Positions 103-36,285 of a stretch of 37,244 nucleotides of DNA are shown here, piece after piece (position 1 is the stretch's first letter; each line of letters opens with the position of its first letter). The position numbers and the translations under genes are program-made. Location of the stretch: assembly GCA_017620525.1 (NCBI GenBank), contig JAGAUY010000022.1, positions 1 through 37,244 of the forward strand, written 5' to 3'. The DNA is from Oscillospiraceae bacterium. Lineage in GTDB: Bacteria > Bacillota > Clostridia > Oscillospirales > Oscillospiraceae. The notes beneath the pieces are model-generated. The model was not told the origin of the DNA and did no database searches. It saw nothing but the letters and a program-made list of their open reading frames with translations.

Positions 103-1620
<1,518 letters not shown>

Positions 1621-31935: not shown

Positions 31936-33681
31936 ATGGCATTTCCGCCGTCATTTCTGGATGAACTGGTGGCCCGCAATCCCATTGAGGATGTGGTCGG
32001 CCAGTATGTGAGCCTGAAGCGTTCCGGCTCCAATCTGTTTGGTCTTTGCCCGTTCCACGGTGAAAAGACTGCTTCCTTCTCTGTCGCGCCCGATAAGGGC
32101 ATCTATTATTGCTTCGGCTGCCACAAGGGCGGCGGCTCCATCAATTTTATGATGGAGATCGAGGGCCTGAGCTATCCCGATGCGGTCCGCGCGCTAGCCA
32201 AGCGGGCGGGGATGACTGTCCCTGAGGATGAGCAGTACCAATCCCGGTACCGCCAGCAGGAGCGGTTGTGGGCACTTTCCAAGGAAGCGGCCAGGTTCTA
32301 TGTTGCCCAGCTGTATGCCCCCGCAGGTGCGGAGGGTCTTGCCTATGCCCGCCGCCGCGGTATGCCAAAATCCACCCTGACCCGGTTCGGAATCGGATTC
32401 GCGCCCAATGAATGGACCGCCATGACTGATGCCATGCGGGCCAAGGGATATACGGATGAAGAGCTGAAAGAGTCGGGGCTGGTGTCCGTTTCTCAGAAAA
32501 ACGGAAGGATCTACGATCGGTTCCGCAACCGCCTGATGTTTCCCATCATTGATGTCCGGGGCAATGTCATCGGCTTTGGCGGCCGCGTGATGGATAATTC
32601 CACCCCCAAATATCTGAATTCTCCCGAGACGATTATTTTTAACAAGCGCAAGAATCTCTTTGCGCTGAATCTTGCGAAAAAGACCAAGCTGCCGTATCTG
32701 ATCCTGGTGGAGGGATATATGGATGCGGTGGCGCTGCATCAGTATGGCTTTGACTGCGCCGTGGCATCTTTGGGCACTTCCCTGACGGAAGAGCACGCGG
32801 TGCTGCTGAGCCGCTATACGGAGAATGTGGTGCTGATCTATGACGGCGACGAGGCCGGTCAGCGGGCTACCCGCCGGGCCATCCCCATGCTGGAAAAGGC
32901 GGGACTGCAGGTCAAGGTGCTGCAGATGCGCGACGCCAAGGACCCGGATGAATACCTGAAGAAATTCGGAGCGGACAAGTTTAAGAATCTGCTGGAGGAA
33001 TCTTCCAACCGGGTAGAGTACCAGCTCAATGCCATCCGAAAGAAGTATGACCTGCGGGAAGATGAGCAGCGGGTCAAGTTCATCGGCGAGGCTGCGGAAT
33101 TTATCAGCAGTCTGGGCAATGCTGTTCAGCGGGAGGTCTACGGCCATCGGGTGGCGGATGCGGCGAAGATCAGTTATGATGCCATGAAGATCGAAGTGAA
33201 CAAGGCTTACAAACGCCGGATCGCCCGGGAGAAGAAGCGCCAGGAGAAGATCGACCTAGCTCCTGCCCAGGCGCTGCAGCCTAAGGCCCGTTCCATCCGG
33301 TATGACAATATCAAATCGGCCATGGCAGAGGAGACCATTATTGCCATGGCGCTGAAGGAGCCTGCCCTTCTGGATGAGGCGCAGGACCTGAAGGAGGAGG
33401 AATTTTCCTCAGGTCTGCTGGGAAGTGTGTATGTGCAGCTGCGCAGCCGCCATGACCAGGGACTGGACGTATCCCTGGGTGTGCTTTCTGATCTGACGGG
33501 CGAGGAGATGTCCCATATCACGGGCATCTATCAGCGTCAGCAGGGACCGGTCTCCGAGCAGGCATTCCGGGACTGCGTCCGTACCATCCATGCGGAGCAT
33601 CAGGCGTCGAAGGTGGATTCCGCCGATGATCTGATGGCCCTTCGGAACAGATACAAAGAAAGAAAAGGAATCAAAGGATGA
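31936..33681 (+). CDS. dnaG: DNA primase
   Basis: DnaG makes RNA primers at the replication fork. The 581-residue protein has the N-terminal zinc finger (LCPFHGEKTASFSVAPDKG then YYCFGCHKGG, residues about 37-66), the catalytic core with the basic motif FRNRLMFPIID, the TOPRIM motifs LVEGYMDAVALHQ (near 258) and YDGDEAGQRATRRAI (near 301), DAKDPDEYL, and a C-terminal helicase-interaction region. The ATG has a GGAGGAG site. The gene ends inside the start of the first sigma gene (ATGA overlap), the classical dnaG-rpoD arrangement. Confidence 0.98.
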   Translation: MAFPPSFLDELVARNPIEDVVGQYVSLKRSGSNLFGLCPFHGEKTASFSVAPDKGIYYCFGCHKGGGSINFMMEIEGLSYPDAVRALAKRAGMTVPEDEQYQSRYRQQERLWALSKEAARFYVAQLYAPAGAEGLAYARRRGMPKSTLTRFGIGFAPNEWTAMTDAMRAKGYTDEELKESGLVSVSQKNGRIYDRFRNRLMFPIIDVRGNVIGFGGRVMDNSTPKYLNSPETIIFNKRKNLFALNLAKKTKLPYLILVEGYMDAVALHQYGFDCAVASLGTSLTEEHAVLLSRYTENVVLIYDGDEAGQRATRRAIPMLEKAGLQVKVLQMRDAKDPDEYLKKFGADKFKNLLEESSNRVEYQLNAIRKKYDLREDEQRVKFIGEAAEFISSLGNAVQREVYGHRVADAAKISYDAMKIEVNKAYKRRIAREKKRQEKIDLAPAQALQPKARSIRYDNIKSAMAEETIIAMALKEPALLDEAQDLKEEEFSSGLLGSVYVQLRSRHDQGLDVSLGVLSDLTGEEMSHITGIYQRQQGPVSEQAFRDCVRTIHAEHQASKVDSADDLMALRNRYKERKGIKG

Positions 33682-34550
33682 CTTTAGACCTTTTGGAGCG
33701 GGAAGCGGAATCTCCGGTCAGCACCGGGGAAGACGATGTCCGCCAGTATTTAAGCGAAATCCGACGCTACCCCCGCCTTACCCCGGAGGAGGAGCGGACG
33801 CTCGCCAGACGGTGCGCAGAGGGAGATGAGGAGGCCATCCGTCAGATGGTCAATTCCAATCTCCGGCTTGTGGTCTCTGTGGCGAAGGAATATGCCGGCC
33901 GGGGTGTGCCGCTGCTGGATCTCATTCAGGAGGGCAGTATCGGTCTGCTGGCAGCGGCGAAAAAATTTGACTATACGCTGGATTTCAGGTTTTCTACATA
34001 TGCCACCAAGTGGATCCGTCAGGGTGTGACCCGGTTTCTGATGAATCAGGGACAGACGATCCGTGTGCCGCTGCACACGGCAGAACGGATCCGGAAGATT
34101 CAGCAGGTGCAGACTGCCCTGCGGCAGAAAAACGGTGTGGAGCCGACCGACGAGGAACTGGCGGCCCACTGCGAGCTTCCTGCGCCGAAGGTCCGGCAGC
34201 TGCTGCGGCTGAATCCGGAAGTGTGCAGTCTGGATGCCCCTGCCGGTGATGATGACGGTACGCTGGGAGTTCTGCTGGAAGATCTTCAGGCACCGCAGCC
34301 CCATGAGGAGCTGGTGCGCGAAGAGCTGAATCAGACCATTGACAATCTGCTTGCCATGCTCAATGACCGGCAGCAGCAGGTTCTGCGGCTCCATTTCGGT
34401 ATGGCTGACGGCACCTGCCACTCGCTGGAGGAGATCGGCGGAATTCTGGGCATCTCCAAGGAGCGGGTCCGTCAGATCGAAAAACAGGCCATGGACAAGC
34501 TCCAGAAGCTGGGAGCCAGCATGGGATTGGAGGATTTCCTGAATGAATGA
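33678..34550 (+). CDS. Compact sigma-70-family factor in the rpoD position
   Basis: A 290-residue sigma-70 factor with regions 1.2 (VRQYLSEIRRYPRLTPEEE, residues 21-39), 2 (NLRLVVSVAKEYAGRGVPLLDLIQEGSIGLLAAAKKFD), 2.4 (YATKWIRQGVTRFLMNQGQTIRVPLH, 108-133), 3 and 4, including the 4.2 helix-turn-helix LEEIGGILGISKERVRQIEKQAMDKL. It has no region 1.1. Lys111 replaces the first of the two tryptophans used in promoter melting (Trp433 in E. coli sigma-70). The dnaG overlap puts it in the rpoD slot, yet it is shorter than typical RpoD/SigA (about 360-380). It overlaps a second, degenerate sigma-like gene by eight bases. It may be the main factor or an alternative one; the sequence alone does not decide. 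Confidence 0.93.
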   Translation: MTLDLLEREAESPVSTGEDDVRQYLSEIRRYPRLTPEEERTLARRCAEGDEEAIRQMVNSNLRLVVSVAKEYAGRGVPLLDLIQEGSIGLLAAAKKFDYTLDFRFSTYATKWIRQGVTRFLMNQGQTIRVPLHTAERIRKIQQVQTALRQKNGVEPTDEELAAHCELPAPKVRQLLRLNPEVCSLDAPAGDDDGTLGVLLEDLQAPQPHEELVREELNQTIDNLLAMLNDRQQQVLRLHFGMADGTCHSLEEIGGILGISKERVRQIEKQAMDKLQKLGASMGLEDFLNE

Positions 34551-35580
34551 TATGTTTACATTTGAAGCAACCCCCTGGGAGCTGGCCCTGGAGGAGATTC
34601 CTGCCGGCGGCAGCATTTCCGCTGTCCGTTTTCTGACGCTGCTGGAAGGGGAAAATGAGGAATCTGTGGAGGATGCATTTGCGGATCTGCACGAGCGCGG
34701 CATTCGTCTGGATATCGCTGATCTTCCCAGACCCGCGGGTACCGGTGAGGCTGCGCTGCGGCTGCGCCGGGAGGAGCAGCTGATCGGCGAGCATAAGCTG
34801 CTGGAGAGCCTGGAGGATCATGACCCGCTGCGGCTGTATCTGGAAGAACTGGCCTCCATTCCCGTCTGCGGTGATGTCCGTCTGCTGGCACTGCAGAGCG
34901 CCGAGGGAAGCGAAACTGCCCGGGAAAGACTGCTGAATTTGTCCCTGAGCCGTGTTGTGGAGCTTGCGCAGGAATATGCCGGCCGGGGCGTGCTGCTGCT
35001 GGATCTGATCCAGGAAGGCAGCATGGGTCTCTGGCAGGGGATTTTGTGCTATGAATGCGGCAATTTTGAAAATCACCGGGATTGGTGGATCCGCCAGGCA
35101 CTGGCAAAGGCGGTTACCATGCAGGCCCGTACCGGCGGTTTGGGACAGAAGATCCGCCAGGCTCTGGAGGACTACCGGGCTGTGGATGAACGGCTGCTGG
35201 GTGATCTGGGACGCAATCCCACGCTGGAGGAACTGGCGGAGGAACTGCACATGAGCGTGGAAGAAACCGCGCTGGTTGCAAAAATGCTGGAAAATGTCCG
35301 GATGATGGACCGGGTGAAGCCCGCGGAAGAGCCGGAGGAAGAGGATGCGCCGGAAGAACAGCAGGCTGTGGAGGACACTGCCTATTTCCGGATGCGTCAG
35401 CGGATCGCGGAGTTGATGTCCGGCCTCAGTGAAACGGACGCGAAGCTGCTTTCTCTGCGGTTCGGTCTGGAGGGCGGCCTGCCCCTGAGTCCTGAGGATA
35501 CCGGCAGAAAGCTCGGACTGACACCGGAAGAGGTCGTCGCGCGGGAAGCGAAGGCCCTGGCTCAGCTGCGGCGGAGCTAA
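34543..35580 (+). CDS. Degenerate RpoD-like sigma factor paralogue with a region 1.1-like N-terminus
   Basis: A 345-residue protein. Residues 23-62 resemble sigma region 1.1 (VEDAFADLHERGIRLDIADL), 92-107 are region 1.2 (DPLRLYLEELASIP), and 130-197 follow region 2 (LDLIQEGSMGLWQG, DWWIRQALAKAV, QART) with the Trp-Trp dyad at 181-182. The IRIP stretch that follows in RpoD is replaced by GGLGQKIRQ. Region 3-like residues (NPTLEELAEELHMSVEE) remain, then an acidic insert (EEPEEEDAPEE) and a region 4 in which LTPEEVVAREAKALAQL lacks the R-V/I-R-Q-I-E contacts. It starts inside the first sigma gene with GGAGG nine bases before. The open frame, good signals and even codon use argue against a pseudogene. 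Confidence 0.88.
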   Translation: MNDMFTFEATPWELALEEIPAGGSISAVRFLTLLEGENEESVEDAFADLHERGIRLDIADLPRPAGTGEAALRLRREEQLIGEHKLLESLEDHDPLRLYLEELASIPVCGDVRLLALQSAEGSETARERLLNLSLSRVVELAQEYAGRGVLLLDLIQEGSMGLWQGILCYECGNFENHRDWWIRQALAKAVTMQARTGGLGQKIRQALEDYRAVDERLLGDLGRNPTLEELAEELHMSVEETALVAKMLENVRMMDRVKPAEEPEEEDAPEEQQAVEDTAYFRMRQRIAELMSGLSETDAKLLSLRFGLEGGLPLSPEDTGRKLGLTPEEVVAREAKALAQLRRS

Positions 35581-35604: not shown

Positions 35605-36285
35605 ATGGCAAAATATTATTCCATCGCCATTGACGGCCCTGCGGGCGCGGGCAAGAGTACCATCGCCAAGCGTCTGGCCAGGGAACTGGGTTATTATTAT
35701 GTAGACACCGGTGCGATCTACCGTACTGTGGCATATTTTCTGGATCTGCTGGGCGTCAGCCCCAAGGATGTGGACGGTGTTGAGCGCTACATCGATGAGC
35801 TGACCATTGACATCTGGTACGATGAAGAGGGTCTTCAGCATATGATCATGAACGGAATGGATGTAACCGGTGAGATCCGTACCCAGGACATCTCCCAGAA
35901 GGCCAGCCTGGTATCTGCGCATGCCTGCGTGCGCGAGATGCTGTTGGATATGCAGCGGGACCTCGCAAAGGAAAACAACGTCATCATGGATGGACGCGAC
36001 ATCGGCAGTGTGGTGCTGCCCAAAGCTGATGTGAAGATCTTCCTGACGGCCTCTCCCGAGGTTCGTGCAAAGCGCCGCACCGACGAGCTTCTGGAAAAGG
36101 GCCAGAAGGCAAATTATGAGCAGACTCTGAAGGACATCAAGCAGCGTGATTATCAGGATACCCACCGTCCCATTGCGCCGCTGAAGATGTGCCGGGATTC
36201 CGTCAAGGTGGATACCTCCGAGATGGATATTGAGCAGGTGGTCGCCGAGATCAAAGCGATCGTCGGAAAGAAGATCTGTGTATGA
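35605..36285 (+). CDS. cmk: Cytidylate kinase
   Basis: Cmk phosphorylates CMP and dCMP with ATP. The 226-residue protein starts YYSIAIDGPAGAGKSTIAKRLA, with the P-loop at about residues 10-18, then YYVDTGAIYRTVAY, the CMP-specific insert, IMDGRDIGSVVLPKADVKIFLTASPEVRAKRR and the RDYQDTHRPIAPLK lid segment. Length is typical. An AGAAGGA site precedes the ATG. The stop overlaps the ispH start by four bases (ATGA); cmk next to ispH-S1 is a familiar clostridial order. Confidence 0.97.
   Translation: MAKYYSIAIDGPAGAGKSTIAKRLARELGYYYVDTGAIYRTVAYFLDLLGVSPKDVDGVERYIDELTIDIWYDEEGLQHMIMNGMDVTGEIRTQDISQKASLVSAHACVREMLLDMQRDLAKENNVIMDGRDIGSVVLPKADVKIFLTASPEVRAKRRTDELLEKGQKANYEQTLKDIKQRDYQDTHRPIAPLKMCRDSVKVDTSEMDIEQVVAEIKAIVGKKICV

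Follow-up and report, generated by a model that had tools for sequence, protein, structure and literature searches.

Among proteins that bind RNA polymerase, phage T4 gp33 is a flap binder without promoter recognition. Group 2 sigma factors lack region 1.1 and keep regions 1.2–4.2; in factors that possess it, region 1.1 holds free sigma compact and mimics DNA in the channel (both statements from PMC4598750). In the SigO-RsoA system of Bacillus subtilis the sigma domains are shared out between the two proteins, and both are required, according to PMC10028694; a table in PMC10141391 assigns the domains of SigO and RsoA the other way round. Here we analyze two adjacent sigma-70 family genes, referred to below as A and B, which follow the primase gene dnaG in the usual place of rpoD. 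They are located in a stretch of 37,244 nucleotides from an Oscillospiraceae bacterium (GenBank assembly GCA_017620525.1, contig JAGAUY010000022.1, positions 1 to 37,244), the whole of which is called the window. A is a group-2-like protein retaining most promoter contacts, and B is probably a promoter-blind core binder. We see about an even chance that B is a selected regulator, either a partner or a brake, of A or of RNA polymerase, and that it came from a freed rpoD locus.

Conservation and domain composition of A and B

The comparison of residues was based on an alignment of 34 A and 34 B proteins, 31 RpoDs of the genus (two of them from G013, with that of G003 left out), 11 second RpoDs of sister genera and 17 RpoDs from the dnaG slot. 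Residue numbers follow what we take to be the E. coli RpoD numbering, and the contact roles are likewise assumed. A column was considered RpoD-fixed if it was fixed in at least 57 of the 59 RpoDs. There are 142 such columns, and 18 of them are on the list of DNA contacts. Judged by the majority residue, A keeps 15 of these 18 positions and B keeps one, while at the other 124 positions A keeps 72 and B keeps 51. The Fisher test of DNA-contact versus other fixed positions yields p = 0.003 for B and p = 0.042, in the opposite direction, for A. Within the B set, the DNA-contact columns (19 of 21 could be scored) are less conserved than random ones (0.542 vs 0.67, P = 0.004), and the six core-contact columns are more conserved (0.897, P = 0.006). 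Within the A set, the DNA-contact columns are more conserved than random (0.912 vs 0.735, with none of 5000 draws as high), and the core-contact columns are weakly so (P = 0.07).

Individual residues follow the same division. Of the beta'-clamp contacts, D403 and Q406 are present in all 34 B proteins and E407 in 32; N409 is retained in only two, Ser occupying this position in 28 B proteins as well as in A. On the DNA side, N383, R451, R584 and R588 are kept in none of the 34 B proteins, Y430, H455 and Q589 in one each, E585 in 15, Q437 in 14–15 and F427 in 21. The position of R588 is taken by V or L in 26 B proteins, and that of R586 by E in 30. These counts bear out the original prediction that the second gene has lost the IRIP stretch (represented by the Arg R451) and the region 4.2 contacts. 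The Trp-Trp dyad, ascribed by the same prediction to the second gene, did not hold up as a feature of the family: W433 is found in 14/34 and W434 in 15/34 B proteins. A carries Lys in place of W433 in 33/34 proteins, and, taken with these counts, the dyad cannot be relied on as a complementary trait of the pair. Further, 81 columns are nearly fixed in B, of which 37 carry a residue unlike that of RpoD, with regions 3.1 and 4.1 containing several of these; this argues for a new function rather than decay. Given the kept core face and the lost DNA contacts, the suggestion that the second gene may be a core-binding modulator fits best.

Pfam regions 2, 3 and 4 were found in the window B at low but passing scores and match all 34 B proteins (E 0.01). 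Region 1.2, also predicted for the second gene, is recognized by its Pfam model in only three of the 34. No anti-sigma domain is among the 14 Pfam families matched by the 34 B proteins at the same threshold. The best NCBIfam match of B is RpoD, with a score of 146.8 against the cut-off of 572, and positions 5–344 of the B profile, nearly its full length, align with SigA of PDB entry 7ckq. The degenerate regions 2.3–3.0 correspond to the segment of −10 recognition and melting and the extended −10 segment, and the C-terminal tail of RpoD is mostly absent. B is acidic (mean isoelectric point (pI) 4.58, net charge −25.9), RpoD being close with a pI of 4.81. The N-terminus of B has a mean net charge of −10.4 over the 34 proteins. 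When compared by hhalign, it matches the N-termini of the slot RpoDs with 64% probability (score 30.7) and the pooled RpoD profile with 46% (score 27.5), while in 30 column-shuffled control profiles the probability did not exceed 1% nor the score 7.9 (one score was not parsed). An apparent resemblance of the B N-terminus to region 1.1 is moderately supported, and its closeness to the slot RpoDs fits the descent of B from the slot gene.

In A, Pfam regions 1.2, 2, 3 and 4 are present both in the window protein and in all 34 A proteins (E 0.01), and the columns of region 1.1 are absent from it in the protein alignment. Its best NCBIfam match is also RpoD (291.9, cut-off 572). N383, L386, Y430, E585 and R588 are kept in 34/34 A proteins and Q589 in 33/34. 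The first gene therefore lacks region 1.1 and keeps the DNA contacts, as had been proposed, and with regions 1.2 to 4.2 present and 15 of the 18 promoter contacts in regions 2 and 4 retained it resembles group 2 on both counts. The exceptions among the contacts include W433K and R584K, the latter substitution being found in 33/34 A proteins. W433 is a conserved residue of the −10 wedge, and its replacement is unusual given that A retains most other −10 contacts. The mean pI of A is 5.45 and the net charge is −7.8. The anti-phage sigma factor MzaA of the MZA system was tried as a candidate identity and rejected: the NCBIfam model NF041931 scores A at 254.7 and B at 97.7 with a cut-off of 800.

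The pair is conserved in related genomes of the genus, a group of gut bacteria. Among 60 relatives searched, B was found in 34 of 36 congeners (39–67% identity), with no stop within the match in any of the 34 and one match cut by a contig end. In the wider search B was identified at E ≤ 1e-66 in 126 of 136 genomes of the genus, including 39 of the 40 that combine a completeness of at least 90% with a contamination of at most 5%; none of 390 other genomes sampled from the class gave such a match. The best match outside the genus among 394 genomes of the order has an E-value of 3.0e-63, which is the RpoD level; the cut-off was chosen after this RpoD ceiling had been seen, and as a rule the best five candidates per genome were scored in the order and class searches. 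Four of the 126 B rows show one stop. In G593 and G580 the stop is simply where the gene ends, G507 has a C-terminus shortened by about six codons, and B of G597 is in pieces on two contigs, its stop lying next to a contig edge.

Of the ten genus genomes without B, seven (G018, G027, G508, G526, G540, G549, G589) also have no dnaG match, and in G581 and G582 the contig ends inside dnaG or A. In G556 (83% complete), dnaG and an open A are followed by cmk 30 nt after the A stop, with no B between them. This A (L260, frame 653–1486, minus strand) is 59–61% identical to the nearest five A proteins, and elsewhere in the G556 genome only RpoD- and A-level matches were found, none of the B level. At least one loss of B therefore took place in which A was retained. 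The persistence of A without B fits A as the sigma factor and B as the regulator.

The ratio of nonsynonymous to synonymous rates (dN/dS, NG86, eight pairs) is 0.12–0.38 for B and 0.05–0.24 for A; in four of the pairs dS exceeds 0.9, so that their values are rough. The mean protein distance over 24 loci is 0.862 for B, 0.545 for A, 0.355 for DnaG and 0.142 for the canonical RpoD, B being the fastest of the six proteins measured. Judged from these values, A and B evolve fast but under constraint. Together, the presence of B in nearly all genomes of the genus, its dN/dS and the kept core face point to a selected, probable core binder and not to a decaying copy.

The features of the region are listed in Table 1. 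The predicted eight-base overlap of two sigma-70 genes after dnaG was confirmed in the window. In all 34 congener loci fetched, A adjoins B; dnaG lies directly 5' of A in 33 of them (in the remaining one the contig ends inside A), and cmk lies 3' of B in 31. Of 35 loci, the window among them, 31 show an A–B overlap, its length being 8, 4 or 1 bases, and two others have an ATG that would give one of 4 bases. The retention of the overlap argues for matched amounts of A and B.

Table 1. Coordinates of genes and protein regions at the A–B locus in the window.
Feature	Coordinates	Strand	Comment or basis
dnaG (primase)	31936..33681	+	Marks the ancestral rpoD slot; stop overlaps the A start by 4 bases
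A, sigma-70 family protein, 290 aa, group-2-like	33678..34550	+	Regions 1.2 to 4.2, without region 1.1
GGAGGA, Shine-Dalgarno-like	34529..34534	+	Inside the C-terminal codons of A, 8 nt before the B ATG; read from sequence
A/B overlap, 8 bases (ATGAATGA)	34543..34550	+	Read from sequence
B, probably promoter-blind sigma-70 paralogue, 345 aa	34543..35580	+	Pfam, alignment, conservation
B residues 1–90, region-1.1-like acidic N-terminus	34543..34812	+	hhalign against slot RpoD N-termini
B residues 147–164, GxGVLLLDLIQEGSxGLW, region 2.1–2.2	34981..35034	+	Well kept (alignment); taken to be the core (beta' clamp helix) contact stretch
B residues 165–208, degenerate regions 2.3–3.0	35035..35166	+	7/35 RpoD-fixed positions kept, vs 19/35 in A
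B residues 208–257, region 3.1	35164..35313	+	Likeness among B 0.56, among A 0.43
B residues 258–275, acidic linker replacing the sigma finger (region 3.2)	35314..35367	+	
B residues 291–343, region 4	35413..35571	+	4.1 kept, most 4.2 recognition-helix contacts lost
cmk (cytidylate kinase), putative	35605..36285	+	Next gene after B; name read off the protein

Canonical RpoD and the history of the dnaG slot

A canonical RpoD is encoded elsewhere in the genome in 31 of the 36 congeners, among them each of the 13 with a completeness of 90% or more, and in 29 of 31 loci it is located beside lepA. RpoD fragments were found in G014 and G025. Neither a canonical RpoD nor a fragment of one was found in G008, G031 and G032, nor in the genome to which the window belongs (68% complete). 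In the latter, lepA was not found either; an organism without any RpoD was therefore rejected, an assembly gap being the simplest explanation.

In other families dnaG was found in 21 of 22 genomes searched, each of the 21 having an RpoD match no more than 730 bases from the dnaG match on the same contig. In other genera of the same family, for which 19 of 91 dnaG loci were fetched (mostly the best DnaG matches), a full-length RpoD follows dnaG in 18 loci, and the 19th is cut by the contig end. From the sister genera, 11 second RpoDs located elsewhere in the genome were also fetched (L210–L220, with the slot set L221–L239). Several sister genera hold two full-length RpoDs, the second grouping with the lepA-side RpoD of this genus. 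The sigma factor of the slot had probably given up its principal role before A and B arose from it.

Tandem RpoD genes occur elsewhere. In two genomes from other families of the order (G043, L088 4483–6724; G051, L089 4335–6687), two full-length RpoDs stand in tandem in the dnaG slot, which is possibly a picture of how such pairs start. In G013, two tandem canonical RpoD genes (L086 4420–5598 and 5736–6935; identity 91% by tblastn) are flanked by lepA on one side and a phosphofructokinase-like gene on the other. A further RpoD-like sigma, shorter and with near-standard regions, is encoded elsewhere in the genome of G028 (L209 1997–2809; the open frame spans 322 aa, or about 270 aa when counted from the nearest start), and a similar one is present in G467 from another genus (L240 2402–3214).

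Possible role of B and alternative explanations

In the explanation we favour, the A–B pair would have arisen from the freed rpoD locus after a second, canonical RpoD, usually beside lepA, existed. B would be a pseudo-sigma made in step with A through overlapping translation. It may bind the core RNA polymerase, contacting the beta' clamp helices via region 2.2 and the beta flap via region 4.1, and/or A itself; its main target may be the core, A or RpoD. Such binding would limit or tune the amount of the A-holoenzyme (or of the RpoD-holoenzyme), and the acidic region-1.1-like head of B could replace the autoinhibitory head missing from A. A would then start a subset of near-standard promoters once B is out-competed or removed.

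Several observations weigh against this explanation. As the clean loss of B in G556 shows, neither A nor the cell strictly depends on B. A itself departs from RpoD: W433 is replaced by Lys in 33/34 A proteins, and the charge of its region 4.2 (−1.8) is below that of B (+0.2), the RpoD values being +5.4 to +5.9, so that A cannot be regarded as a simple RpoD-like sigma. The resemblance of the B N-terminus to region 1.1, proposed in the original prediction, is seen with the slot RpoDs and fails in two other comparisons: the hhalign probability with the lepA-side RpoDs is only 0.7%, and the Pfam region 1.1 model matches none of the 34 B proteins, though it matches 4/4 RpoDs tested. The two most divergent lineages (L083 and L084) have no clear A–B overlap, the gaps by the best start being 24 and 35 nt. 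In the mirror-tree test (24 loci holding all six genes, with the window left out), no co-evolution of A and B beyond the species tree was found (partial r 0.22, with 69 of 1000 permutations as high). Stronger values were obtained for B with cmk (0.46), RpoD-b (0.37) and ispH (0.28), and for A with dnaG (0.43).

Phylogenetic trees, built on two subsets, of 67 and of 59 rows (with L207, L222 and the cut L231 left out), do not settle the deep order, the branch lengths being 3.24 changes per column for B and 1.5 for A. The tree that places A and B together exceeds the free quick tree by 3.94 log units (approximately unbiased test, p = 0.563), the quick tree joins A with RpoD-b with support 73, and A and B have 6 shared and 21 different changes. 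The origin of A and B by a single duplication is therefore neither shown nor rejected.

A more specific version, which we hold only tentatively and rate below the general one, is that a primary sigma gene was duplicated and its functions were split: A would read promoters, and B would combine the region 1.1 head with the core grip, providing autoinhibition in trans. As a cellular pseudo-sigma, B would then serve either as a sigma-derived anti-sigma or as a holoenzyme placeholder, its production matched to that of its own sigma by the overlapping genes.

It is unlikely, though worth weighing, that B is an ordinary alternative sigma of drifted promoter specificity that binds DNA via changed regions 2.4 and 4.2. 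Pfam regions 2, 3 and 4 still match all B proteins, R436 (31/34) and R599 (34/34) are retained and region 3.0 is basic (charge +2.0), all of which would suit such a factor. However, a new fixed specificity would hold the DNA-facing columns constant, and among the B orthologues these columns vary more than others; moreover, hydrophobic or acidic residues stand at the contact positions R588 and R586.

Somewhat less probable still is that the chief target of B is the canonical RpoD, or core polymerase generally, for example as a stationary-phase or sporulation brake on housekeeping transcription, its link to A being positional only. The kept core-binding face agrees with this, and the distances of B track RpoD-b (3 of 1000 permutations as high) better than A; the overlap with A, retained in most loci, speaks against it, as it suggests matched amounts of the two.

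The original prediction also proposed that the two proteins act together as a two-part sigma like SigO-RsoA, both being needed on one polymerase. The genes overlap, and the losses are opposite, of region 1.1 in A and of the DNA contacts in B. This model does poorly, and we consider it improbable: A alone has regions 1.2, 2, 3 and 4 in every one of the 34 proteins and most of the DNA contacts, it persists in G556 with cmk next to it and no B at the locus or elsewhere in that 83% complete genome, and the co-evolution signal is absent. Besides, A and B keep the same core-contact face and so are expected to be rivals for a single site, not complementary parts. That B is a decaying, functionless RpoD duplicate is highly improbable. 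The original prediction named two signs of such decay; a full-length RpoD is indeed encoded at another place in genomes of the genus, but B is not broken in the relatives. B is the fastest of the proteins measured, it is cleanly lost in G556 and one stop is seen in four rows (in two the gene's own end), but it is widespread and under purifying selection, and its nearly fixed columns include many new ones.

Pseudo-enzymes that regulate active relatives are common. If the favoured explanation is true, a pseudo-sigma beside an active sigma in the rpoD slot would extend this principle to the choice of promoters. The genomes form a natural series, with RpoD in the slot in sister genera, A and B in this genus, A alone in G556 and the canonical RpoD elsewhere, which would allow tests of the steps by which the locus of a primary sigma becomes free and is built anew, and of whether region 1.1 can work in trans.

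Comparison with known systems

Pairs of the A–B type in Oscillospiraceae were not found in the openly licensed literature, for which titles and starts of abstracts were covered, so that this is weak evidence of absence. We know of no described case of a sigma-derived anti-sigma made from a gene overlapping that of its own sigma.

A and B occupy the usual place of rpoD, and the profile of B aligns with SigA; unlike the group 1 factors RpoD/SigA, both proteins score below the NCBIfam RpoD cut-off, and a separate canonical RpoD exists. With SigO-RsoA the pair has in common two sigma-70-like proteins encoded at one locus for which joint action was proposed. The difference is that A alone carries domains 2, 3 and 4, and B repeats the same three in degenerate form. 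A resembles the group 2 (RpoS-like) factors in lacking region 1.1 and keeping regions 1.2–4.2. Unlike them, it sits in the rpoD slot, overlaps the gene of a putative pseudo-sigma and has Lys at W433. Finally, B is similar to anti-sigma factors and gp33 as a candidate occupant of the sigma sites on RNA polymerase that would leave promoters unread, and it differs from them in being itself a sigma-70 paralogue.

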